Source of the DNA: an uncultured Verrucomicrobiota bacterium
Lineage (GTDB): Bacteria > Verrucomicrobiota > Verrucomicrobiia > Limisphaerales > UBA9464
DNA: 37,989 nucleotides
Direction of reading: 5' to 3'
Assembly: GCA_903880005.1 (NCBI GenBank)
Contig: CAIRNV010000270.1
Coordinates: 1 to 37,989, forward strand
Shown here: piece after piece, positions 5,283 through 21,974 of the stretch
Position numbering within the stretch: position 1 is the stretch's first letter
Layout of the letters: every line of letters starts with the position of its first letter
Position numbers and translations under genes: made by a program
Notes under the pieces: generated by a model
The model's input: only the letters and a program-made list of their open reading frames with translations
Database searches by the model: none
Told to the model about the DNA's origin: nothing

Positions 5283-5681
5283 ATGGCGACGAACCGGAGG
5301 CGAGGCGAGGGAGGGCTTGGGTTGGGCACGGTGGTGCGTGCCCTGCTGTTGAGCGGTTTGATCGCGGGCCTGGGTGTTCACTACGTCCGGATGCACGCCG
5401 AGCAGTTGGCGTTGGGCAAGAGGATCACGGAGCTGGAGAAGCAGGACCTGTCGCTGGCGCACGAGCTGGACCTGGGACGTGCGACGTTGAACGACCTGTT
5501 GACGCGGCCGCGGCTGCTGGAGGCGGTGCAACGATTCAACCTGCCGCTGGTGACGCCCCCGGCGTCGCAGCGCCTGAACATCGAGCTGGCGGAGCCATGG
5601 CCGGTGGCCGCGAAGGGTCCCGGGGGCGACGGGGTCGCGGCGCCGGTGCGGCCCATGGCGGCGCTGGGTGCGACGCGCTGA
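5283..5681 (+). CDS. ftsL: FtsL-like bitopic division protein
   Basis: Short basic N-terminus, one TM (VVRALLLSGLIAGLGVHYV), coiled coil, position between rsmH and ftsI. Confidence 0.7.
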   Translation: MATNRRRGEGGLGLGTVVRALLLSGLIAGLGVHYVRMHAEQLALGKRITELEKQDLSLAHELDLGRATLNDLLTRPRLLEAVQRFNLPLVTPPASQRLNIELAEPWPVAAKGPGGDGVAAPVRPMAALGATR

Positions 5682-5697
5682 GGAGGAATGGGACGCG

Positions 5698-7800
5698 ATG
5701 GAAGCCGACACGATGCGCCGACGACTGCGGGGGATGGCCTGGTTGCTGGGCCTGGTCCTGGTCGCGCTGGGTGGGAGGCTGGTGCAGGTGCAATGCCTGA
5801 GCCCTGTGGAGGCGGGCCCTGGCGAGGGGACGCAGCAGCGGGTGGTGCGGCCGGCGCTTCGCGGGAAGCTGTTGGACTCTCGGGGCCTGGTGTTGGCGCA
5901 GAGCCGGTGGCTGCATGACCTCTACGCGGACCCGGTGGTGGTGGGGACCAACGGGGCATGGCTGGCGCGGGTGGCGGGGCGTGCGTTTGGCGTGGAGCCC
6001 GGGGACTTGGAGCCGCGCTTCGCGGTGAAGCGGGTGGAACGTCACGCCCGGACGGTGGAGTCGGTGGGCGGCGCGTGGGTGACCAACGTGACGGTGCGAG
6101 CCTTCACCAACCGGTCGGTCCTCGTCCTGACGAACGTGGAGGACGCGGTGCTGGAGCGGTACCGGGAGGCGGTGCGGGAGGCGAAGCTGCCGCGGTTGGA
6201 GGAAGTGGAGCGGGAGATCGAGGCCTTGCAGAAGGAGATGCCCAAGCCCTTGGAACGTCTTCGGTTGCTGGCGACGGGGCGGCGCGGGGAGTTGCGCGAG
6301 CAGGGGTCGAGGATCCGGGCATTGCGCAAGGAGATGGCGGGGCTGCGTGACCAGAAGAGGACGATCGAGGCGAACGCGATCGTGGCGCTGCCCGTGGAGC
6401 ATCGGGCCTATCCGCTGGGGCATGCGGCCGTGCATGTGCTGGGGCACGTGACCAACGGGTTTGTGACCAACCAAAACGTGGTGAGGCACCAGCGCTTCCT
6501 GAGGCGGTCGTTGGGGGCGGCGGGGATCGAGGCCAAGTTCGACTCCGCGTTGCTGGGCGTCCCCGGGTTGGTGGAGACGCGCGTGGCGCGCGGGCGCGAG
6601 TTGGTGAGCATGCGCGGGAGGGACCTGGCCCCGCGGGACGGGCTGAACGTCCGTCTCACGTTGGATGCGCATTTGCAGAGCATCGTGGAGCAGGCCATGG
6701 ACGAGGGGGTCGCGGCGATCGCGCCCGAGAAGCTCGTGTGCATCGTGGTCCGGCCTTCGACGGGCGAGATCCTGGCGTTGGCCAACCGGCCTTGCTACGA
6801 CCCCAACCGGTTGGGCGAGGCGAGGGCGGACGGCCTGCCCAACTGGGCGTTGGGGATGGGGACGGACCCGGGCTCGACGTTCAAGATGGTGACGTATTCG
6901 GCGGCGCTGGACCTGGGCCTGGCGACGCTGGATGGCATGGTGAACTGCCATGGGGGCACGTGGCAGCCGTCGTCGGGTCGGCCCGTGCGGGACGTCGAGG
7001 GCCACGGGTTGTCCGTGGTGACGCTGGAGGAGGCCTTTGCCAAGTCATCGAACGTGGCCGCGGCCCAACTGGGGCTTGGCATGCGCCCCGACCAGTTGAT
7101 GGACTACATCCGCCGCTTCGGGTTCCTGGCGCGAACGGGCATCCTGGCCCCCGCGCCCAACCGTGCCGGCGGCGAGTCTTCGGGGGGCATTGATCGCCCG
7201 GACCGCATGAACGTCGAGCGGCAGGGCCGCTTGTCCTACGGCTACGGCATCCTGGTCACGCCCTTGCAGACCGTCATGGCGGCGGCGGCCATCGCCAACG
7301 ATGGCGTCCGGATGAAGCCCATGTTGGTGCGGTCGCTCGAGGAGCCGGACGGCACGGTGGTGGCGCGATACGAGCCCGAGGTGGGCACCCGGGTCATGAA
7401 GCCCGAGACGGCGGCCCAGATGCGCCGGGCGATGCGGGCGGTGGTGCAGAACGGGACGGCGAAGGCGGTGGCGATGGAGGATTTCGAGGTGGCTGGCAAG
7501 ACCGGCACCGCCCACCAGTTCGTGGATGGGCGCCAAAGCTCGGAGAAGTACGTCTCCACCTTCGTGGGGTTCCTGCCCGCCGACCGGCCTGAGCTGTGCA
7601 TCCTGGTGCTGGCGCACTCGCCCGAGAAGCGCGGGCCGGGCTCGTACTTCGGCGGCAAGGCCTGCGGCCCCATCTTCAAGGCCATCGCGCGTCACGCCGC
7701 GAACCACCTGGGGCTCGTCCCCAGCGCCCGTACCAACGACGCGTCGGCCGTCGTGCGGGGGGCTGGAACCTTCCCCGGCGCGGGAGCGCGCACCCCCTGA
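5698..7800 (+). CDS. ftsI: Class B penicillin-binding protein (FtsI/PBP3-type) with N-terminal-domain coiled-coil insertion
   Basis: N-terminal TM; SxxK = GSTFK, SxN = SSN, KTG = AGKTGTAH; AGGAGGA upstream. Confidence 0.93.
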   Translation: MEADTMRRRLRGMAWLLGLVLVALGGRLVQVQCLSPVEAGPGEGTQQRVVRPALRGKLLDSRGLVLAQSRWLHDLYADPVVVGTNGAWLARVAGRAFGVEPGDLEPRFAVKRVERHARTVESVGGAWVTNVTVRAFTNRSVLVLTNVEDAVLERYREAVREAKLPRLEEVEREIEALQKEMPKPLERLRLLATGRRGELREQGSRIRALRKEMAGLRDQKRTIEANAIVALPVEHRAYPLGHAAVHVLGHVTNGFVTNQNVVRHQRFLRRSLGAAGIEAKFDSALLGVPGLVETRVARGRELVSMRGRDLAPRDGLNVRLTLDAHLQSIVEQAMDEGVAAIAPEKLVCIVVRPSTGEILALANRPCYDPNRLGEARADGLPNWALGMGTDPGSTFKMVTYSAALDLGLATLDGMVNCHGGTWQPSSGRPVRDVEGHGLSVVTLEEAFAKSSNVAAAQLGLGMRPDQLMDYIRRFGFLARTGILAPAPNRAGGESSGGIDRPDRMNVERQGRLSYGYGILVTPLQTVMAAAAIANDGVRMKPMLVRSLEEPDGTVVARYEPEVGTRVMKPETAAQMRRAMRAVVQNGTAKAVAMEDFEVAGKTGTAHQFVDGRQSSEKYVSTFVGFLPADRPELCILVLAHSPEKRGPGSYFGGKACGPIFKAIARHAANHLGLVPSARTNDASAVVRGAGTFPGAGARTP

Positions 7801-7804
7801 CGCC

Positions 7805-9133
7805 ATGTTGCTGCAAGAAATCCTACCCCTGTTGCCCGGTGCGCGGTGCGATGCCTCGCGGCTGCGGCGTGCCCCGGGCCGGGAGCTTCGCGGCGTGTCG
7901 GTCGATCCACGCCAATCCGGGCCGGGCATGGTGTTCGTCTCGTTGCCGGAGCGGTCGCGAAGCAACCCCTTCGAGGCCTGCGCGGCCCGTGACCGGGGCG
8001 CCCGCGTCGTCGTCCGGGAGCGGTCGGACCCGGCCGGTGCCCCCACGGGGATGGTGTGCATCGAGGTGGACGACGCCCGTCGGGCCTACGGGCTGCTGGC
8101 GTCCGCGCTTCATGGGGATCCATCGCGTCGCATGACGGTGGTGGGTGTGGCGGGCGAGCCGGGCTGGCGCGAGCGAGTGGCGGGGCTGGCCTCGGCATTG
8201 CTGACGGCCTTGGGCGAGCGGTGCGCGTGGTTCTCGGGACGCGCGCTCGTATCGGGCGAGCGCAGGCTTCCTTGGGAGGCGATGGGCGTGGAGGCCGGGC
8301 GAGTGCAGGCGGAGATGGAGCGCCACGTGGCGGCCGGCGGGGGCGCGTGCGTGCTGGAGCTCGGGACGGGCGGGCTCGGCATGGAGGCCGTGCACGGCGT
8401 GGAGTTTCGGATGTTGCGGGAGGCGGCCCCGGGCGTCTCGGGCGGTCTTGAGATGCAGCGGTTGTCGGCGAGGGGGACGATGGCTCGGTGGGATGGACCG
8501 GGTCGTGGGCGCACGGTCCTCACGCCGTTGGTGGGGCGATCGCAGGCGTCGGCGCTGGGGCAGGCGCTCGCCTTGGTGTCCGACCTTGGGTTTGAGACGG
8601 CGCGGTTGGTTTCTGCGACGTCGGGGTTGCAGGGATTGCCGGGCTGGATGCAGACGGTCCTCGCGGGCCAACGGTTTGGGGTGTTGGTGGACGGTGCGGA
8701 TGCGCCGACGTCGCTGGCGGAGGCCTTGGCCGATGCGCGGGAGCTGGGCTCGGGCCGGATCGTGCTCGTGACGGGGCCGCGGCCCGGACTGGGGGAGGAT
8801 GCATGCCGCGAGCTGGCCCGGGTGGCGGGCCGGGGGGCCGACGACGTGGTGGTGACGGCGGATGACTTGGACCCCGCGGGATGGGCGGAGCATGGGCCGT
8901 CGTTTGCGGCGACGGTGGCATCCATGGGCGGCACGACGTGCTGCGAGCCGGACCGTCACCGGGCCGTGGCGCGGGCCTTGCGCATGGCGGGTCCGCGCGA
9001 TGTCTTGCTGTTGGCGGGGAAGGGGCGGCGCCCGGTGCAGGTTTCGGGGCTGACCCGGGTTCCGTGGGACGACGCGGCCCATGCCCGGGCCGCGTTGGCG
9101 GCGATGGGGCATGTCGGGGGAGGATGGGATTGA
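7805..9133 (+). CDS. MurE-like protein, catalytically degenerate (predicted pseudoenzyme)
   Basis: MurE-type N-domain (LRGVSVDPRQSGPGMVFVSLP) and MurE position, but P-loop replaced by GVAGEPGWRERVA; other motifs lost; intact 442-codon frame. Confidence 0.8.
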   Translation: MLLQEILPLLPGARCDASRLRRAPGRELRGVSVDPRQSGPGMVFVSLPERSRSNPFEACAARDRGARVVVRERSDPAGAPTGMVCIEVDDARRAYGLLASALHGDPSRRMTVVGVAGEPGWRERVAGLASALLTALGERCAWFSGRALVSGERRLPWEAMGVEAGRVQAEMERHVAAGGGACVLELGTGGLGMEAVHGVEFRMLREAAPGVSGGLEMQRLSARGTMARWDGPGRGRTVLTPLVGRSQASALGQALALVSDLGFETARLVSATSGLQGLPGWMQTVLAGQRFGVLVDGADAPTSLAEALADARELGSGRIVLVTGPRPGLGEDACRELARVAGRGADDVVVTADDLDPAGWAEHGPSFAATVASMGGTTCCEPDRHRAVARALRMAGPRDVLLLAGKGRRPVQVSGLTRVPWDDAAHARAALAAMGHVGGGWD

Positions 9134-10527
9134 TGGACGCGCGCGACATGGGTTGGTGCGTCCGTGCGCTCGGCGCGGCGCTGGTTCAGGGGGCTGCGGG
9201 CAAGGCCGTGACGGGGGTGAGCACGGATTCTCGTCGGGCTGGGCCCGGCGACGTCTTCGTGGCGTTGCGCGGCGAGCGTTTTGACGGGCACGACTACGTC
9301 GATGAGGTCGCGCGTCGTGGGGTGGCCGGGGTGGTGGTGTCGATGGGTTTCGCCGGGAGTGTTCCGGGCGACGTGGCGGTGTTGAGGACGGACGACACGC
9401 GTGCGGCGTTGGGCAGGATGGCGGCGGCGTACCGTGGCGAGCTGGGAGCGACGGTGGTGGCGGTGGCGGGGTCGAATGGGAAGACGACGACGAAGGAATT
9501 GCTGGCGCGGGTGCTGGGGACGGCGGGGCCGGTTTGGTGGAGCGCGGCGAGCTTCAACAACGACGTGGGGGTGCCGTTGAGCCTGATGGCCGGCGCGGGC
9601 ACGGACCGCGTGGGGATCCTGGAGGCGGGCACGAATCACCCGGGCGAGCTGGCGCCCTTGCTGCGCATGATGCGGCCGCAGGTGGGCGTGCTTACGAGCA
9701 TCGGGCGGGAACACCTGGAGTTCTTCGGGGACGAGTCGGGCGTGGCGCGCGAGGAGGGTGCCTTGGCCGAGTCGTTGGGCGTCGATGGGCTTTTGGCGTT
9801 GCAGGGCGACGGGCCGTTTGCGGACGGGATTGCGGCGCGGTGCGCCGGGCGGGTGCTCCGGTTTGGTTGGTCGGCCTCCAATGACTGGCGGGTGGTGTCG
9901 TCGCGGAGCCTGTGGGAGGGGGAGGAGTTCGAGGTGGCGGGCGGCGGGGCGGGTTGGGACGGGACGTGGCGCGTCGGGGTGCCTGGGCGGGCGATGGCGT
10001 CGAATGCCACGGCGGCGTTGGTGGTGGCTAAGGAGCTGGGCGTGGAGCCGGGGGCGGCTCGGGAGGCGCTGGCGGGATTTCGCGCGCCGGAGCGGCGGAT
10101 GGCGGTGCGGGAGGCGGGCGGGGTTCGGATCCTGGACGACTGCTACAACGCGAACGCCGACTCCGTGGCGTCGGCGCTGGAGACGTTTTCGAGGCTGCCT
10201 TGCTTGGGCAGGAAGGTGGCGGTGCTTGGGGACATGGCGGAGCTGGGAGGGGCGAGCGAGGCGGCGCACGCGGAGGCCGGGGAACGGGCGGCGGCGAGCG
10301 TGGATGCGTTGGTTGCGGTGGGGCGTTGGTCCGGGGTGATGGCGTTGGCCGCGCGCGGGGCGGGGATGGAAATGGCGATGGCGTGCGAGGACGTGGACGG
10401 GGCGTTGGCGTGGCTGGAGGGGAGCTTGAGGGAGGGGGACGCGATGTTGGTGAAGGGTTCGCGGTCGTCGCGCATGGAGCGCGTGACGGAGGGGTGGGTT
10501 CTCAAGGCTGGGGGTGCGGCATGCTGA
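9133..10527 (+). CDS. murF: UDP-N-acetylmuramoyl-tripeptide--D-alanyl-D-alanine ligase
   Basis: VSTDSRRAGPGDVFVALRGERFDGHDYV, VVAVAGSNGKTTTKELL, SFNNDVGVPLSLM, EAGTNHPGEL, DDCYNANADS; ATG overlaps the upstream stop. Confidence 0.95.
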   Translation: MDARDMGWCVRALGAALVQGAAGKAVTGVSTDSRRAGPGDVFVALRGERFDGHDYVDEVARRGVAGVVVSMGFAGSVPGDVAVLRTDDTRAALGRMAAAYRGELGATVVAVAGSNGKTTTKELLARVLGTAGPVWWSAASFNNDVGVPLSLMAGAGTDRVGILEAGTNHPGELAPLLRMMRPQVGVLTSIGREHLEFFGDESGVAREEGALAESLGVDGLLALQGDGPFADGIAARCAGRVLRFGWSASNDWRVVSSRSLWEGEEFEVAGGGAGWDGTWRVGVPGRAMASNATAALVVAKELGVEPGAAREALAGFRAPERRMAVREAGGVRILDDCYNANADSVASALETFSRLPCLGRKVAVLGDMAELGGASEAAHAEAGERAAASVDALVAVGRWSGVMALAARGAGMEMAMACEDVDGALAWLEGSLREGDAMLVKGSRSSRMERVTEGWVLKAGGAAC

Positions 10528-12933: not shown

Positions 12934-13011
12934 GGAAGGCCTGGAGGCGAGGCCCGGCGTCGCGTGCCGAGAGGGGCGCGGCGCCGGGTGTGGGTGCGGG
13001 GCGGCCATGGC

Positions 13012-14166
13012 ATGGCGATGAAGACCTGGTTGATGCTCTTGTTGCTGGCGGTGGGATCATTGGTGGCCCTGAGCCTGACGGTGCTGACGAGCGCGACGCT
13101 CCTGGACGCCCGGCCTGGCATGACGGTGACGAGCCAATGGGCGGCGTGCGTGGCGGGCGTGGCGTTGCTGCTGGGGGCGGCCTCGATGGATTATCGCCGT
13201 TGGTCGCGCCTGGCGTGGCCGTTGCTGGGGGTGACGCTGGTGTTGCTGGCGTTGGTCTTGGTGTTTGGCCGTGAGATCAACGGGGCGCGACGGTGGTTGT
13301 GGGGCGTGCAACCGGCCGAGATGGCGAAGCTGGCATTGATCATCGTCCTCTCCCTTCATGGCGCGCGGAACGCGGCGTCGATGGGCCGGGTGCGGACCTT
13401 CCTCTGGGGGGCGTTCGTGCTGGCGGGGCCGTTGGTGGCGTTGGTGTTGATGGAGCCGGACCGCGGCACCGGGGCCTTGCTGCTGGCGTTGACCTTGATG
13501 CTTCTTCTGCTGGCCGGGGCCAGTTGGTGGATGGTGGCGGGCCCGGCCGTCCTGGGTGCGGCGGCGCTGACGACCATGATCGTCGTGAGCCCCATGGCGC
13601 GCGACCGGATCGAGGCATGGTTGCATCCCGAGGCCAACCCGAAGGCCCACTTCCAGGTGCGACGCGGGCTGCTGGCGTTTGGATCCGGCGGCGTGGAGGG
13701 GACGGGGCTGGGGAAGGGCACGATGAAGTTCTCGGTGCCGGAGGTGCGGACGGATTTCATCCTGCCGGCGGTGGGGGAGGAGCTGGGCCTGACGTTCACG
13801 TTGGCCGTGGTGACGGCGTACCTGGTGATCTTGTGGGCGGGCACGTCCATTGCCCTGCGTGCGCCGGATGACTTCGGGCGGCTCATGGCCTCGGGCATCA
13901 CGTTCCTGATTGCGATGCAGGCGGTGATCAACATCGGGGTGGTGACGAGCGTGTTTCCCAACAAGGGGATGCCCCTGCCATTTGTGAGCCGCGGGGGGTC
14001 CAACCTGATCGTGTTGCTGACGATGGTGGGCATCCTGGCCGCGATTGCCCGGGCGGCGGACGAGGAGGGAGAGGAGCCTCGTGGAAAGGCCGACGCGGCG
14101 AGGCCCTCCCGCGTGCGGCGCCGCAACCCGTTTGGCAGGGACGACGAATGGGTGGGGGCCGCATGA
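13012..14166 (+). CDS. ftsW: SEDS-family division protein / PG polymerase FtsW
   Basis: GREINGARRWL, QPAEMAKLALI, MEPDRGTGALL, RTDFILPAVGEELG, LPFVSRGGSNLIVLL. Confidence 0.95.
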   Translation: MAMKTWLMLLLLAVGSLVALSLTVLTSATLLDARPGMTVTSQWAACVAGVALLLGAASMDYRRWSRLAWPLLGVTLVLLALVLVFGREINGARRWLWGVQPAEMAKLALIIVLSLHGARNAASMGRVRTFLWGAFVLAGPLVALVLMEPDRGTGALLLALTLMLLLLAGASWWMVAGPAVLGAAALTTMIVVSPMARDRIEAWLHPEANPKAHFQVRRGLLAFGSGGVEGTGLGKGTMKFSVPEVRTDFILPAVGEELGLTFTLAVVTAYLVILWAGTSIALRAPDDFGRLMASGITFLIAMQAVINIGVVTSVFPNKGMPLPFVSRGGSNLIVLLTMVGILAAIARAADEEGEEPRGKADAARPSRVRRRNPFGRDDEWVGAA

Positions 14167-15329
14167 GCCTCGGGGACGTGCGGGACATCCACGTCGCGAT
14201 CGCGTGTGGCGGCACGGGCGGCCACCTGTTTCCCGGGCTGGCTGTCGGGCGCGAGCTGCGGTCGCGGGGCGTGGGCGTGACCTTGCTGGTGTCGCCCAAG
14301 GCCGTGGATCGGGAGGCGGTGACGGGGGTGGCGGACGTGCCGGTGGCCGTGCTACCGGCCGTCGGCTTGCAAGGGAGGAACTACCTGGGGTTTGCCTTGG
14401 CCGTCCTGAGGTCGTGCAGGGAGGCACGCCGGTTGTTCCGTCGGATTCGTCCATCGGCGGTCCTTGGAATGGGCGGGTTCATGTCCGTGCCGCCCATCCT
14501 GGTGGGGCGATGGATGGGTTGCGTGACGGCCTTGCATGAGTCCAACACGGTTCCGGGACGTGCGAATCGTTGGTTGGGCCGGCGCGTGGACTTGGCTCTG
14601 GTGGGCTTCGAGGAGGCTTCGTCGCGATGGTCGGCGCGGGTCGTGGAAACGACGGGCACGCCGGTGCGCGAGGCCATTCGTCCGATGAACGCGGCGGCGT
14701 GCCGCCAGGAGTTGGGTCTCGACGCCGGGAGGCCGGTGTTGGCGGTGATGGGTGGGAGCCAGGGTGCGACGGGGTTGAACACGGCCGTGACGGCCGCCCT
14801 TCCCGCCATTGTGGCCCGCTGGCCCGCGTTGCAATTCATCCACCTTTGCGGCCACCGCGACCTTGCGGCCGTGCGCAAGGCGCACGAGGCGGCCGGCGCG
14901 AGGTCCGTGGTGGAGGCGTTCACGAGCCGGATGGAACGTGTGCTGGGGGCGACGACGCTGGCAGTCGCGCGCTCCGGGGCCTCGACGTTGGCGGAGTTTG
15001 CGGCGGCGGGCGTCCCGTCGGTGTTGATTCCATTCCCGGCCTCGATGGACGACCATCAACGCTTCAATGCGCGGGCGATGGAGCGGGCGGGGGCGGCCGA
15101 GGTGTTGGATCAAGGGGAGGCGACGCCGGAACGCCTGGTGGATGTCCTGGGCCGCACCTTGGATGACGAGGACGCACGCGGCCGCCGCGTGCGTGCGGCG
15201 ATGTCGTTGCACCGACCGGACGCGGCGCGACGCATGGCGGAGCGATTGCTGGCGTTGGCATGGGGGCGGCGACGCGGGGGCGCGGAGGCGGGCGCGTCGT
15301 CGGCGCGGGCGGCGGAGGGGTTGCCATGA
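14163..15329 (+). CDS. murG: Lipid I GlcNAc transferase MurG
   Basis: IACGGTGGHLFPGLAVGREL, GMGGFMSVPPILVG, HESNTVPGRANRWL, MGGSQGATGLN, ARSGASTLAEFAAAGVPSVLIPFP; ATGA overlap with ftsW. Confidence 0.96.
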   Translation: MSLGDVRDIHVAIACGGTGGHLFPGLAVGRELRSRGVGVTLLVSPKAVDREAVTGVADVPVAVLPAVGLQGRNYLGFALAVLRSCREARRLFRRIRPSAVLGMGGFMSVPPILVGRWMGCVTALHESNTVPGRANRWLGRRVDLALVGFEEASSRWSARVVETTGTPVREAIRPMNAAACRQELGLDAGRPVLAVMGGSQGATGLNTAVTAALPAIVARWPALQFIHLCGHRDLAAVRKAHEAAGARSVVEAFTSRMERVLGATTLAVARSGASTLAEFAAAGVPSVLIPFPASMDDHQRFNARAMERAGAAEVLDQGEATPERLVDVLGRTLDDEDARGRRVRAAMSLHRPDAARRMAERLLALAWGRRRGGAEAGASSARAAEGLP

Positions 15330-16321
15330 GCATGTTGAAGCTATCCGGGGAGGCCGTGGACGGGCTGCTGTGCGACGCGTTGGGACGTGCCGAGCGCATG
15401 GCCGACCTGCACCGGGACCTGGCCGGGGTGTTGTCGGCCGGGGCGGTCCTGCGACGGGACGAGCCGATGTCGAGGCGGACGACGCTTCGGGTGGGTGGCC
15501 CGGCGGACGTGTACGTGGAGCCTGCGACGGAAGGGGACCTTGGGGAGGCGTTGGGTCTGGCGATGGCGCATGGGGTTCCCGTGTTTGTCCTGGGGCGTGG
15601 GTCGAACTTGCTGGTGCGGGATGGAGGGCTGAGGGCGTTGGTGGTGTCGTTGGCGCAGCCGGCGTTTGCCCGGGTGGAGCGGGTGGAGGGGCGGCTTCGG
15701 TGTGGGGCGGGGGCGTCGTTGCGGCAGGTGGCGTTGGCGGCGCGGGACGCCGGGCTGACGGGGCTGGAATTCCTGGAGGGGATTCCGGGCAGCGTGGGCG
15801 GGGCCCTTCGGATGAACGCCGGGGCGATGGGCGGTTGGATGTTCGACGTGGTGGAGACCTTGAGGTTCATGGATGCGCAGGGCGTGGTGCAGGAGGTGCC
15901 CGGGGCCGAGGCGGGGGCGGGGTATCGGGAATGCCCGATGTTGCGGACGCACGTGGCGCTGGGGGCGGTGCTGAAGGGGAGCCCGGCCGGCCGCGCGGAG
16001 ATCGAGGCGCGGTTGGCGGACAGCAACCGGAAGCGGTGGACGAGCCAGCCGAAGCAGCCGAGCGCGGGTTGCACGTTCAAGAACCCGCGTCCGGATCTTC
16101 CGGCGGGGCGGTTGATCGACGAGCTGGGGTTGAAGGGATTGCGGGTGGGGGACGCGATGGTGTCGGACGTTCACGCCAACTTCTTCGTGAACCTCGGCCG
16201 TGCGACGGCGGCGGATGTCCTGGAGCTGGTGCGACAAGTGCGCGAGCGGGCCCGGCTGGAGCGCGGGGTCGAGCTGGAGGCGGAGGTGGAGATCGTGGGG
16301 GAGGAGGCGACGGCGCCATGA
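15326..16321 (+). CDS. murB: UDP-N-acetylenolpyruvoylglucosamine reductase
   Basis: TTLRVGGPADVYVEP, VLGRGSNLLVRDGGL, GLEFLEGIPGSVGGALRMNAGAMG, PSAGCTFKNP; ATGA overlap with murG. Confidence 0.96.
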   Translation: MSMLKLSGEAVDGLLCDALGRAERMADLHRDLAGVLSAGAVLRRDEPMSRRTTLRVGGPADVYVEPATEGDLGEALGLAMAHGVPVFVLGRGSNLLVRDGGLRALVVSLAQPAFARVERVEGRLRCGAGASLRQVALAARDAGLTGLEFLEGIPGSVGGALRMNAGAMGGWMFDVVETLRFMDAQGVVQEVPGAEAGAGYRECPMLRTHVALGAVLKGSPAGRAEIEARLADSNRKRWTSQPKQPSAGCTFKNPRPDLPAGRLIDELGLKGLRVGDAMVSDVHANFFVNLGRATAADVLELVRQVRERARLERGVELEAEVEIVGEEATAP

Positions 16322-17226
16322 AGCAGGTTGAGAGGATTGCGGTGTTGCGGGGCGGGCCGTCGGCGGAGCGCGAGGTCTCGCTGCGTTCGGGCGCGGCGGT
16401 GGCGCGGGCATTGGCCGCGTTGGGGCATGACGTGCGGGAGGTGGATCCCGAGCCGGGGCGGCTGGCATTGCCGCCGGGGACGACGGCGGCGTTTTTGGCG
16501 TTGCACGGGACGTATGGGGAGGACGGCCAGGTGCAGGCGGAATTGGAGGCGCTGGGGATCCCGTACACGGGATGCGGCGTGGAGGCATCGCGGCTTGCCT
16601 TTGACAAGGTGTTGACGCGGCAAGCCTGCGAGGCGGCGGGCGTGCCGGTGGCCCGCGGGCACGTCTTGGTGCGTGCGGACGAGGGCTGGCCGGAGGGGTG
16701 GCGGCCGCCCGTCGTGCTGAAGCCGTCCCGGCAAGGAAGCAGCGTGGGGTTGCAGTTCGTGGACGACGCGGGCGGGTGGGCGTCGGCGTTGGCCGAGGCG
16801 TTTCGCCATGGATCCGAGGTCCTGATGGAGGAACGGATCCTGGGTCGGGAGACGACGGTGGGCATCCTTGCGGGCGAGGCGTTGCCGGTGGTGGAGGTGC
16901 GCCCGCGTTCCGGGGCCTATGATTACCGCAACAAGTACACGCCGGGTGCGACGGAGTATTTTTGCCCGGCGGACCTTCCCTTGGCGGTGACGCAGGCGGT
17001 GCAAGGGGCGGCGTTGGGGGCGTTTCGGGCGGTGGGTGGCCGGGACTACGCGAGGGTGGACGTGATGGTGACGGGGGAGGGACGCCCGGTGGTGCTGGAG
17101 GTGAACACGTTGCCGGGGATGACGGAGACGAGCCTGCTGCCGAAGGCGGCGGCGGCGGCGGGGCTGGACTTTGGGGCGTTGTGCCAACGGTTGCTGTCGA
17201 TGGCGCTGGAGAGGAGGCGTCGGTGA
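16318..17226 (+). CDS. ddl: D-alanine--D-alanine ligase
   Basis: RIAVLRGGPSAEREVSLRSG, LALHGTYGEDGQVQAELE, VLKPSRQGSSVGL, YDYRNKYTPGATEYFCPA, LEVNTLPGMTETSLLPKAA. Confidence 0.96.
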   Translation: MKQVERIAVLRGGPSAEREVSLRSGAAVARALAALGHDVREVDPEPGRLALPPGTTAAFLALHGTYGEDGQVQAELEALGIPYTGCGVEASRLAFDKVLTRQACEAAGVPVARGHVLVRADEGWPEGWRPPVVLKPSRQGSSVGLQFVDDAGGWASALAEAFRHGSEVLMEERILGRETTVGILAGEALPVVEVRPRSGAYDYRNKYTPGATEYFCPADLPLAVTQAVQGAALGAFRAVGGRDYARVDVMVTGEGRPVVLEVNTLPGMTETSLLPKAAAAAGLDFGALCQRLLSMALERRRR

Positions 17227-18185
17227 AGCGGGGATGGGGCCGGGGCAACCGTCGGCAGGAACGACGGGTGGAGCTGGACGTCCGGTTGCGGAGCCGTGGC
17301 GGGCTGGGCAGGACGGGGGGCGCGGTGGCACGGGGCGTGGCGGGGTTGGTGTTGGCGTCGTTGGTGGCCGGGGCCTGCCTGGCGGGCTACGTGGTGGCGC
17401 GGGACCGGTGGTTGCACCGGACGGAGGCGCTGGCGCTGAGGCAATTGACGGTGACGACCGACGGGTCGCTGTCGCGCGCGGACCTCCTGGCGCAGGCGCG
17501 GGTGCGCGAGGGGATGAACACGTTTGCGATCGACCTGCCGACGATGCGGGACCAATTGATGCGGCATCCCAGGCTGGCGTCGGTGGAGGTGCATCGGGAG
17601 TGGCCCGCGACGTTGCGCATCCATGTGCAGGAGCGTTTTCCCGTGGCCCGCGTGAAGGTCCTGGACCGGCAGGGGATCGACTTTGCGTACCTGCTGGATG
17701 AATCCGGGCACGTCATGTTGCCGTTCGAGCGGGGGCATGCGGCCCCGGAAGTCGTGGAGTCGGAGTCCACGCTGCCCCTGTTGCTGGGGGCGCAGGGGGC
17801 GTTTGTGGTGGGGCAGACGACGTCGCATCCCGGGGTGTTGGCGGCGCTGCAATTGCTGTCGGAGTACCAAGGCTCCGAGATGGCGACGTTGGCGGACGTC
17901 GTGAGCGTGGATGTGAGCCGGGTGGGCGAGGTGGAGGCGCAGACGTGGCTGGGGAGCCGCGTGACGTTTGGGATCCCGGAGCCGGGGCGTGGGTTTGACC
18001 GGGCGTTGCGGTTGTGGAAGGCGGTGCACCTCGACTCGGCCGGCCGCGGTCGCTTGATTGGCACCCTGGATCTTTCGGTGACCAACCACGTTCCCTTGCG
18101 GTGGATGGATTCGCCCGCCGAGCCGGCGAAGGTGGTGCCGCGTCCCGCCAAGGCCTCGCGCAAGCCCGTTCGACGCCATGGCTGA
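17223..18185 (+). CDS. ftsQ: Cell division protein FtsQ (POTRA)
   Basis: Basic N-terminus, TM, POTRA-like LALRQLTVTTDGSLSRADLLAQARVREGMNTFAIDLPTMRDQLMRHPRLASVEVHREWPATLRIHVQER; GTGA overlap with ddl. Confidence 0.88.
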   Translation: MKRGWGRGNRRQERRVELDVRLRSRGGLGRTGGAVARGVAGLVLASLVAGACLAGYVVARDRWLHRTEALALRQLTVTTDGSLSRADLLAQARVREGMNTFAIDLPTMRDQLMRHPRLASVEVHREWPATLRIHVQERFPVARVKVLDRQGIDFAYLLDESGHVMLPFERGHAAPEVVESESTLPLLLGAQGAFVVGQTTSHPGVLAALQLLSEYQGSEMATLADVVSVDVSRVGEVEAQTWLGSRVTFGIPEPGRGFDRALRLWKAVHLDSAGRGRLIGTLDLSVTNHVPLRWMDSPAEPAKVVPRPAKASRKPVRRHG

Positions 18186-19377
18186 TCCCGGCTCCATCGT
18201 CGTGGGTCTCGAAGTCGGCACCAGCAAGGTGTGCGCGGCGGTGGGCGAGGTGTCCCCCGCGGGCGTGTTCAGCCTGCTGGGCCTTGGGCAGTCGAAGTCT
18301 CGGGGCGTACGGAAGGGCGAGATCACGGACGCCCAAAAGGCCATCGAGGACGTGCGCAACGCCATCGCCGAGGCCGAGCAGATGGCGGACGTCGAGATCC
18401 GTTCGGCCTACCTGGGGGTCACGGGGGCCCATGTGCGGGGCGAGACGCGACAGGGGTTGCACCCGATCGTGTCCGAGGGCCGGGAAATCACGGCCGAGGA
18501 CGTGCAGGACGCTGTGGAGAACGCGCGGGCGCGGGACCTGCCGCACGAGCACGTGGTGATCCACACGATCCGCCAGGATTTTTCCGTGGACGACCACGAT
18601 GGGGTGGCGAACCCGGAGGGGATGGTGGGGTCACAATTGCTGGCGCACGTGCATGTGGTGCACGGCCAGCGCAACCGGATCGACACGGGGGTCCGCGCGG
18701 TGCAATCCCTGCAGCTCGAGGTGGACAACGTGGTGTTCAACGGTCTGGCGAGCGCGTTGGCGGTGCTGACGACCCAGCAGAAGGAGATGGGGGTGTTGGT
18801 GGTGGACCTGGGCGCCGGGGTGACGGAGTACGCGGTGTACGGCGACGCCTTGCTGCGGGGTTGCGGCGCGTTCGCCGTGGGGGGCGACCACGTGACCAAC
18901 GACCTGGCCATCGGGCTCAAGATTCCCCTGGGGCGGGCCGAGCAGTTGAAGGTGTCGCATGGCGCGGCGGAGCCGGTGGCTCGCGGGGAGGATCCGGAGC
19001 CGGTCGCGTTGCCGGCCGATCCGGGCTTGCCCGAGCGCACGATCAACCTCGCCCAGCTTCGCCTGATCCAGTCGGCCCGGGTGGAGGAGACGCTCGAACT
19101 GGTGGCCCGCGCGGTGGGGCCTTCGCTGGACCTGTGCCGGGCCGGGGTGGTGCTTTGCGGCGGGGGTGCGCGCATGGTCGGCATTGAGGCGGCGGCCCAG
19201 CGGGTGTTCAAGCTGCCCGCCACCGTGGGGCGCGTGCAGGGTGTCTCGGGTCCCGTGGACCTGCTGGGGCATCCGGAGTTCGCGGCGGCGATTGGCTTGG
19301 CGCGGTTTGGGGCCATGCGCCGCCCGCCGCCATCCCGGGGCGGGCTGAGGCGGCTGCTGGGCCCATGGTTCCGTTGA
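18178..19377 (+). CDS. ftsA: Cell division protein FtsA
   Basis: IVVGLEVGTSKVCAAVGE, LVVDLGAGVTEYAVY, CGGGARMVGIEAAAQRVF, C-terminal amphipathic RRLLGPWFR. Confidence 0.95.
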   Translation: MADPGSIVVGLEVGTSKVCAAVGEVSPAGVFSLLGLGQSKSRGVRKGEITDAQKAIEDVRNAIAEAEQMADVEIRSAYLGVTGAHVRGETRQGLHPIVSEGREITAEDVQDAVENARARDLPHEHVVIHTIRQDFSVDDHDGVANPEGMVGSQLLAHVHVVHGQRNRIDTGVRAVQSLQLEVDNVVFNGLASALAVLTTQQKEMGVLVVDLGAGVTEYAVYGDALLRGCGAFAVGGDHVTNDLAIGLKIPLGRAEQLKVSHGAAEPVARGEDPEPVALPADPGLPERTINLAQLRLIQSARVEETLELVARAVGPSLDLCRAGVVLCGGGARMVGIEAAAQRVFKLPATVGRVQGVSGPVDLLGHPEFAAAIGLARFGAMRRPPPSRGGLRRLLGPWFR

Positions 19378-19414: not shown

Positions 19415-20791
19415 ATGAGCGCGAGCCGCGAGATGAACCCGGGCCCGAACCCGGGCGCCCCCACCGCCCCCGAGGTTGCCGGCAGCCCCGGGTCCGACGC
19501 CATGCCGAAGCCCGTGCAGGACTTTCGGGTGGTGGCCGTTGGGCGCGCCGGCATCCATGCCGTGGAACGTTTGTGCGGCGAGGGTGCGTTGCCGGGCGTC
19601 GATGTCATCGCTTGCCACACGTCGGCCTCGGCGCTGGCCCAGTCCGCGGCCCCGTTCAAGGTCCCGATGAAGTCGGCCGGGTCGCGTGGGCTGGGTGCGG
19701 GCGGGGATCCATTGCTGGGCCAGGCGTCGGCCGAGGGCTCCAAGGAGGCGCTGGGCATGATGTTGGCCGGGGCGCGGGTGGTGTTCGTCCTGACGGGCCT
19801 TGGCGCCGGCACGGGGACGGGCGCCGCCCATGTGGTGGCGCGCTGTGCACGCGACGCCGGCGCGCTCGTGCTGGGGGTGGCGACGATGCCCTTTGATTGC
19901 GAGGGCCGGCTGCGTGGCGGCCACGCGCGGCGCGGGCTTGAGTTGCTCAAGGGCGCGGCCGACGCCGTCGTGACGGTGCGCAACCAGCACGTGCTGGAGA
20001 CCTTGGACGAGCGCGCGCCGGCGGCGGAGGTGTTTGACGCGGCGAATCGCCTGCTGGTGGAGGGGGTGCGGGGGCTTTGGGGTTTGCTCACGCGGCCGGG
20101 CCTCATCCGGCTCGACTTTGCCAGCCTGGAGCGGCTTCTCCGGGGGCGTCACACCGAGAGCGTGTTCGCCACGGCCGAGGGATCCGGGGAACGTCGTGCC
20201 ACGGAGGCGGCGGAGCGCCTGCTGTCGCATCCGTTCGTCGCCCGGGATGCCGTCCTGGGGACGGCGGATGCCGTCGTGTTGTCGGCGGTGACGGGCCCGG
20301 ACGTGCCCTTCACGGACATTGAGCGCGCATTTTCGCTCGTGCAGCGGCATTGCGACCAGGCGCAGGTGGTGGTGGGGACGAGCATCGACCCCGGGATGAC
20401 CGGCCGGTTGTCGATCACGTTGGTGGCGTCCATCGGGGGCTCGGCGCCCTTGCCCGAGGCCTCCGGCGCGGCGGCGTCCGCGGTGGGCGCACCGAAGGAG
20501 TCGCCGACGCGGGATGTGGGCATCGGGATGGAATTGAGCGAGCCGACGTCCTCCATGGGGCGAGCCAGCGGATCCTTGGTGCCGCCGGCCCCGGTCCTGA
20601 CCGTGGATCAGCGGCAGAAGGCGCTGGATCGATCCGGCAAGGGTTCGAGCCGCCGCCGGCGCGTGGTGCAGTCGATGTTCGACTTCGACGTGGTGAGCCG
20701 CGGTCGGTTCGAGAAGACGGAGGCCACGATCCTGGACGGCCAGAACTACGACGTCCCCACGTACCTGAGGCGGCGCATCAGCCTGAATTGA
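19415..20791 (+). CDS. ftsZ: Divergent cell division protein FtsZ
   Basis: SRGLGAGGDPLLGQASAEG, TGLGAGTGTGAAHVVA, TRPGLIRLDFASLERLL, C-terminal NYDVPTYLRRR; position after ftsA. Confidence 0.9.
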   Translation: MSASREMNPGPNPGAPTAPEVAGSPGSDAMPKPVQDFRVVAVGRAGIHAVERLCGEGALPGVDVIACHTSASALAQSAAPFKVPMKSAGSRGLGAGGDPLLGQASAEGSKEALGMMLAGARVVFVLTGLGAGTGTGAAHVVARCARDAGALVLGVATMPFDCEGRLRGGHARRGLELLKGAADAVVTVRNQHVLETLDERAPAAEVFDAANRLLVEGVRGLWGLLTRPGLIRLDFASLERLLRGRHTESVFATAEGSGERRATEAAERLLSHPFVARDAVLGTADAVVLSAVTGPDVPFTDIERAFSLVQRHCDQAQVVVGTSIDPGMTGRLSITLVASIGGSAPLPEASGAAASAVGAPKESPTRDVGIGMELSEPTSSMGRASGSLVPPAPVLTVDQRQKALDRSGKGSSRRRRVVQSMFDFDVVSRGRFEKTEATILDGQNYDVPTYLRRRISLN

Positions 20792-20801
20792 GGGGCCGGC
20801 C

Positions 20802-21974
20802 ATGCAGCCGCGCGGGACATGTTGGGAGGTGGCGCGGACGTTCCTGTGGCTGGGGTTGAGGTCCTTCGGGGGACCCGTCGCGCACGTGGGGCATTTTCGC
20901 GCGGAGTGCGTTTCCAGGCTTCGCTGGGTGGATGATGCAGCGTACGCGTCCTGGGTGGCGCTTTGCCAGTTCCTGCCGGGGCCGGCCAGCACGCAGTTGG
21001 CCTTTTGCCTTGGCTGGTTGCGGGCCGGTTGGGTGGGTGGATGGGTGGCGTTTGTGGCCTTCACCGTGCCGTCGGCCGTCCTGATGACCGGCGTGGCGTG
21101 GGGGCTCCCGCGATGGGTTGGGCCGTGGTCCGGCGCGACGTTGCATGGGTTGAAGATCGCGGCGTGGGCGGTGGTGGGGCATGCGGTGGCGGGCATGGCC
21201 ATGCGGATGAAGGGCGCGCCCGCCGAGTGGATCGTGGCGATCCTCGCCGGGGTGGCGTCGGCGTGGTGGCCGCGCGGCGAGTTGCAACCCTTGTGGGTCC
21301 TGGGCGGGGCGGTGGTGGGGTGGGCCGTCTCGCGCCGTGACTCATTAACGTTGGCATTTCCGGCCGGTGTCTCGCTGCGGCCGTGGCTGGCGTGGGGTTG
21401 CCTTGGGGTGGGGGTGGCCTTGCTGGTGACCACGCCTGCGTGGGGCGGGAATCGGTTGGGAGGATTGGGTGCGGCGATGTACCGGGCGGGGGCCATGGTC
21501 TTCGGGGGCGGCCATGTGGTGCTGCCGTTCCTCGAGGAGTCCGTCGTGGTGCCGGGGTGGGTGACACGTGACGACTTCCTCGCGGGCTATGGGGCGGCGC
21601 AGGTCATGCCGGGCCCCATGTTTACGTTGGGCTCCTACCTGGGGATGCGCGCGGGCGGATGGCCCGGGGCGATCATCGGGACGGTGGCGATCTTCCTGCC
21701 GGGCCTGTTGTGGGTGTCGGCGATCGCGCCCTCGTGGTCGGCCGTGGCGAGCAAGCGGAGTGCGGCCCGCGCGGTTTCGGGTGCGGGGGCCGCCGTCGTG
21801 GGGTTGCTGGCGTCGGCTTGGCTGGGGCCCGTCTGGGACGGGGCCATGCACGGTGGGCGAGACTTGGTCCACGGGTGCGCGGCGATGGCGGCGTTGGGCA
21901 GCGGACGCGTGCCGGTCTGGTTGGTCGTGGGCGGATGCGTCGTGGTGGCGGTGGGTCGGTTCCTTGTGGGTTGA
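20802..21974 (+). CDS. ChrA-family (chromate ion) transporter, two-domain
   Basis: LGLRSFGGPVAHVGHFRAECV...FLPGPASTQLAFCLGW; second half FGGGHVVLPFLEESVV...AQVMPGPMFTLGSYLG. Confidence 0.92.
   Translation: MQPRGTCWEVARTFLWLGLRSFGGPVAHVGHFRAECVSRLRWVDDAAYASWVALCQFLPGPASTQLAFCLGWLRAGWVGGWVAFVAFTVPSAVLMTGVAWGLPRWVGPWSGATLHGLKIAAWAVVGHAVAGMAMRMKGAPAEWIVAILAGVASAWWPRGELQPLWVLGGAVVGWAVSRRDSLTLAFPAGVSLRPWLAWGCLGVGVALLVTTPAWGGNRLGGLGAAMYRAGAMVFGGGHVVLPFLEESVVVPGWVTRDDFLAGYGAAQVMPGPMFTLGSYLGMRAGGWPGAIIGTVAIFLPGLLWVSAIAPSWSAVASKRSAARAVSGAGAAVVGLLASAWLGPVWDGAMHGGRDLVHGCAAMAALGSGRVPVWLVVGGCVVVAVGRFLVG

Follow-up and report, generated by a model that had tools for sequence, protein, structure and literature searches.

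Treadmilling and the hydrolysis of GTP are generally regarded as the core of how FtsZ works. The ftsZ gene in the stretch of Verrucomicrobiota DNA analysed here (37,989 nucleotides; the window) raises the question of whether an FtsZ in which much of the nucleotide-binding and catalytic loops has been replaced can still serve cell division.

The ftsZ gene, its surroundings and its active-site loops

The gene (19415-20791, + strand) starts with ATG, encodes 458 amino acids and is the only match to the FtsZ model in the source genome. It forms the end of an intact dcw cluster, all on the + strand, that comprises an ftsI-type transpeptidase (5668-7800), a Mur ligase (8881-10527), ftsW (12964-14166), murG (14148-15329), murB (15260-16321), ddl for D-Ala-D-Ala ligase as the C-terminal part of an over-long ORF (15067-17226), an ftsQ-type ORF with a POTRA domain and a putative start (16962-18185) and, directly upstream of ftsZ, the gene for the FtsZ membrane anchor FtsA (18178-19377; TIGR01174, 326.5 bits, cut-off 175.85), whose product ends in GLRRLLGPWF, an amphipathic-looking helix as judged from its sequence. 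Directly 3' of ftsZ lies a chromate transporter gene (20802-21974, + strand; PF02417, 222 bits). The ftsZ product matched Pfam PF00091 (Tubulin/FtsZ GTPase; 1.8e-25, 90.8 bits against a cut-off of 33) and PF12327 (FtsZ_C; 9.8e-11, 42.3 bits against a cut-off of 27), and BLASTP gave 36% identity with E. coli K-12 FtsZ over 319 aligned positions. An AlphaFold model, which was built on a shallow alignment (mean pLDDT 54.6) and is confident in the N-terminal domain only, with a poor C-terminal half, reached a TM score of up to 0.86 by target length against FtsZ structures, and the solved structures it matched best were all FtsZs. Orthology is thus what every feature points to except the score of 223.9 bits on the NCBIfam equivalog TIGR00065, which falls under the cut-off of 295.2 bits, a curated threshold that marks no mechanistic feature.

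Residues were mapped by BLASTP against E. coli K-12 FtsZ and by alignment with S. aureus FtsZ, both of which left the T7 loop ungapped, and the substitutions that an earlier note had listed for T1, T2, T6 and T7 were borne out in both. The T1 loop GRAGIH (19541-19558, + strand; E. coli positions 19-24) carries G20R, G21A, G23I and N24H at residues R44, A45, I47 and H48, and the T2 loop CHTSAS (19613-19630, +) carries N43H, D45S and Q47S at H68, S70 and S72. In the T6 region RNQ (residues 189-191; 19979-19987, +), P164 is replaced by R189 and D166 by Q191 while N165 is kept as N190, and in the T7 loop GLIRLDFASL (20099-20128, +) N207 has become R232 and D212 has become S237, with D209 retained as D234, exactly as first read. 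R142 is kept as well (R167). The note had also taken T3 and T4 to be intact, which holds for T3; the T4 loop GLGAGTGTG (19796-19822, +) has the change G106A, which is genus-wide, with its remainder kept, and its GAGTGTG thereby departs from the tubulin signature [SAG]GGTG[SAT]G as quoted in PMC1845146.

The weight of these changes can be gauged from S. aureus FtsZ, in which residue numbers are those of E. coli plus one. D46, Q48, R143, N208, D210 and D213 are there reported to be conserved among species and to have key roles in assembly or hydrolysis, and a high-resolution study showed that D210 swings the catalytic water while D213 shapes its surroundings, that N208 coordinates K and that the waters around Mg are held by N44 and D46; assembly was abolished by each of the single changes D46A, R143Q, N208L, D210N and D213N (PMC8936486). 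Four of these six residues are lost in the protein studied here, which retains R143 and D210 (S. aureus numbering). It thus resembles the canonical FtsZs of E. coli and S. aureus in fold, Pfam domains and dcw position and has the C-terminal peptide, the T3 and T5 loops, D209 and R142 in common with them, and differs in the replaced nucleotide, Mg, K and water residues of T1, T2 and T7 and in its place below the equivalog cut-off.

The C-terminal FtsA-binding peptide GQNYDVPTYLRRRISLN (20738-20788, + strand), said earlier to be intact, was indeed present; its YDVPTYLRRR matches the FtsA-binding motif D-x-P-T-[FY]-x-R, which was found in 188 of 205 FtsZs of the phylum. Ahead of it, and beyond the usual short tail (20693-20788), lies a linker block containing GRFEKTEAT, VSRGRFEKTEAT (20693-20728, +), whose conservation in the alignment spans the genus and extends to canonical members of the order. 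The GRFEKTEAT stretch recurs at loci L003, L005, L006, L013, L014, L016, L017, L019, L028 and L030, and the block may be a binding site for another partner.

Distribution of the substitutions among relatives

To place these residues in context, FtsZ sequences were collected from the genus, family, order, class and phylum of the source genome and 205 of them were aligned, a check that the earlier note had itself proposed, with the FtsZs of E. coli, S. aureus and B. subtilis, archaeal FtsZs, the canonical families f32, f34, f36 and f40 of the class and 13 FtsZ-bearing control genomes as controls. The results showed that the T1, T4 and T7 changes are common to the genus: T1 GRAG(I) and a T7 loop of the form [QR]-[LV]-DF-[AS]-[SHNT] were present in every congener where they could be read, with S, T, N or H at the drifting position 212, and the T4 GAG was shared by members. 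Within the genus only D45S, the T6 change P164R and a P-to-H change after T4 were private to the source genome. G21A and the T6 Q, which the earlier note had listed, are present, but both are ordinary in the order, including its canonical FtsZs.

At family level none of 48 FtsZs kept both T7 acids and none kept N207, whereas R142 was kept in all; some genera retained D209, others D212 and one neither. T7 variation in the phylum had been mentioned in the earlier note, rightly, and proved far larger than suggested. Among 204 FtsZs, 42 had both acids, 77 D209 only, 77 D212 only and 8 neither, N207, D209 and D212 were kept together in 28, and all six key residues persisted in 22 of 203. Canonical T7 loops of the form N-[ILV]-DFADL persist in the order and class (families f3, f9, f14, f32, f34, f36 and f40 among them), and the losses are therefore read as derived. 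The TIGR00065 cut-off was passed by 0 of 50 genomes of the family, 27 of 113 of the class and 5 of 59 of the phylum sample, in comparison to all 13 control genomes having FtsZ. A scan of named genomes with this FtsZ returned archaeal FtsZs only, all with an intact T7 NLDYADV, and a scan of viral contigs gave a single distant match. Taken over these alignments, the erosion of the active site is phylum-wide and repeated and no quirk of one genome.

Two other families bear on the range of this divergence. In family f49 N207 is R or K and D209 is G in both genera sampled, and its genomes carry neighbouring tubulin gene pairs, as in Prosthecobacter; if Verrucomicrobium spinosum belongs to f49, it would have an essential FtsZ without D209. 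In family f37 (L170-L178, genomes of 2.2-2.5 Mb) only the N-terminal part of FtsZ matched the FtsZ model (E 1e-6 to 1e-22), and the adjoining ftsA was recognisable and far less diverged than FtsZ.

We next asked whether the retention of one T7 acid exceeds chance. Joint loss of D209 and D212 was rarer than expected (Fisher 2e-16 by genome, 7e-7 by genus and 3e-4 by family), in a simple test that is inflated by relatedness. On the ftsA tree at least 14 changes fell on one position and at least 18 on the other, and a simulation of independent loss with similar loss totals gave 24 tips with neither acid on average against the 8 observed (P ~0.0015); the simulation that was not conditioned on loss counts was weaker (P 0.089), and an independent-pairs test had too few supported pairs to have any power. 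With moderate confidence, these patterns suggest selection for at least one T7 acid.

Maintenance of the gene and possible modes of action

The evidence that this protein is maintained comes from several sides. A profile search of the source genome, as called for in the earlier note, found no second FtsZ, and rescue by a second canonical copy was rejected, none being present in the genome or its relatives. FtsZ is single in each genome of the order, where each relative has exactly one tubulin-superfamily gene, and across the phylum it is usually single and adjoins ftsA, which shared the retrieved stretch with ftsZ in 204 of 209 cases. Besides the main FtsZ, L208 and L209 (family f69) each have a further FtsZ-like match at a separate place, which is weak (E 6e-9 and 8e-7), and the one family member in which FtsZ was missed (G071) most likely reflects a gap in a draft genome. 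The gene is under purifying selection in the genus, with a median dN/dS of 0.22 for ftsZ and 0.24 for ftsA, values that are rough because dS is near saturation; intact ORFs together with dN/dS ruled out a pseudogene. Given the ftsA synteny, the FtsA-binding tail, the dN/dS and the one tubulin-superfamily gene per relative, we conclude that the FtsZ protein is maintained. Its hydrolytic interface is less well kept than its anchor tail and most parts of the face that binds nucleotide. FtsA phosphate motifs usually have an Asp at which the FtsAs of this family differ; their motifs read GLE[IV]GTSK and D-[LI]-G-[AG]-G-x-TE and are mostly common to the order.

We favour, with a probability of roughly 0.6, the reading that this FtsZ still works as a scaffold of the divisome, with a slowed GTPase between subunits that depends on a single T7 acid. 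The FtsZ fold would be kept and GTP bound through the retained T3, T4 and T5 elements, and head-to-tail filaments would form and be tethered to FtsA by the conserved tail. The inter-subunit site would be relaxed, the Mg-holding T2 residues, the K-coordinating T7 Asn and the second T7 acid being gone, so that hydrolysis would rest on D209, the residue that moves the catalytic water into position, and on R142; one acid and R142 would give slow hydrolysis and longer-lived filaments, and septum closure would proceed mainly via peptidoglycan synthesis by the intact dcw machinery. The altered or very slow hydrolysis predicted in the earlier note agrees with what has been published on the roles of the missing residues; most of the substitutions behind that prediction are not peculiar to this protein. 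In E. coli, FtsZ D212A hydrolyses GTP much more slowly and, together with FtsA, forms extra septa that close, in cells also having normal FtsZ (PMC4383033), while division can run on D212G once one genomic suppressor is present (PMC5405962). The constriction rate of S. aureus is independent of FtsZ treadmilling (PMC10994846), while treadmilling is important for condensing the ring in B. subtilis (PMC8079713). Counted against the favoured reading is that four combined losses could leave no polymers at all, if their effects are additive, because S. aureus D46A, N208L and D213N each stop assembly.

An unlikely alternative is a rebuilt site with near-normal GTPase, in which, for example, R232 at the N207 position makes up for the positive charge of the lost K ion and the T2 contacts are taken over by other residues. 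The eroded state is old and stable under selection, a basic residue occupies N207 in 23 of 203 FtsZs, and an Asp at position 211, found in 25 of the 85 FtsZs without the D209 acid, looks like a shifted acid. In most altered lineages, however, N207 has become P, Q, S, G or A, none of which could replace K, and the congener alignment showed no compensating acid near T7 in the genus. Less probable again is that the protein is a pseudo-GTPase which may bind nucleotide without hydrolysis, static FtsZ and FtsA marking the site while peptidoglycan synthesis does the work. The loss of four of six key residues would suit such a role, as would the absence of any FtsZ from Planctomycetota and Chlamydiota (PMC12283558), and a few lineages lack both T7 acids; against this, one T7 acid and R142 have been retained, which points to continuing selection for some catalysis.

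The source genome has one further, solitary tubulin-family gene (G000 contig C40:31109-32428; L002:1336-2814, P0001), on a contig assigned to this genome because its ileS is 85% identical to that of the nearest congener. Its matches, which take in the C-terminal helices, are to eukaryotic beta-tubulin (6e-27), Asgard tubulin and BtubA, and by similarity it is a tubulin and not an FtsZ. It has the T4 loop GGGYGAG and shares only 24-31% identity with the paired tubulins of f49. A search of 57 relatives, plasmids and phages found no counterpart. Its tubulin-type matches give some footing to the idea that FtsZ is a decaying relic whose part in division was taken over by another filament such as this one, which we regard as very improbable: ftsZ is syntenic and under purifying selection, the V. 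spinosum gene is essential (PMC12283558), and the tubulin was found in none of the 57 relatives, which have the same FtsZ erosion; it was accordingly rejected as a replacement. Most improbable of all is an artefact of misassembly, sequencing error or T7 misalignment, as the draft of 492 contigs and the three private substitutions might suggest, since the same T1, T4 and T7 pattern occurs in independent congeners, which rules out sequencing error for the shared changes, and T7 aligns ungapped.

Known FtsZs and the meaning of the erosion

The T7 loop of beta-tubulin, which faces the non-hydrolysed alpha-tubulin site, keeps the first T7 acid and has the second replaced; unlike it, the FtsZ studied here is expected to form a homopolymer, so that every interface would bear the T7 change. 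E. coli D212G and D212A alter the same position and lower the GTPase, but they are laboratory mutants, whereas here the state is fixed across a genus. A natural likeness is the FtsZ of Candidatus Thiosymbion oneisti, which has a low GTPase (PMC8953583), a property only predicted here. Nitrosopumilus maritimus has a natural FtsZ without the conserved T7 loop that does not polymerise (PMC3684127); that archaeon has Cdv proteins, in contrast to the source genome with no known replacement. Within the phylum, accelerated ftsZ evolution was described for Methylacidiphilum infernorum, with ftsA unaffected and the data unshown, and, citing earlier work, for Prosthecobacter (PMC2474590), and V. spinosum FtsZ was called divergent (PMC1845146). 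The passages concerned do not describe T7-acid loss, and each lineage has its own set of losses. Our literature search found no report of T7-acid loss or active-site erosion in FtsZs of this phylum; the novelty is provisional because that search covered few subscription papers.

Together, these data make the phylum, with most sampled FtsZs lacking at least one key residue and usually no spare copy, a natural series from complete to nearly dismantled sites, and hence nature's own test of whether cells require rapid GTP consumption by FtsZ in order to divide. A wider proposal, which we hold tentatively and at less than even odds, is that either T7 acid suffices and the K-coordinating Asn is dispensable, that the active site has been repeatedly dismantled in a pattern, and that division on slow or near-static scaffolds represents a living intermediate toward the FtsZ-free Planctomycetota and Chlamydiota. 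The minimum GTPase of a dividing cell becomes testable in cultivable relatives, and the erosion of FtsZ in this phylum may shed light on the way in which other members of the superphylum came to lose FtsZ.
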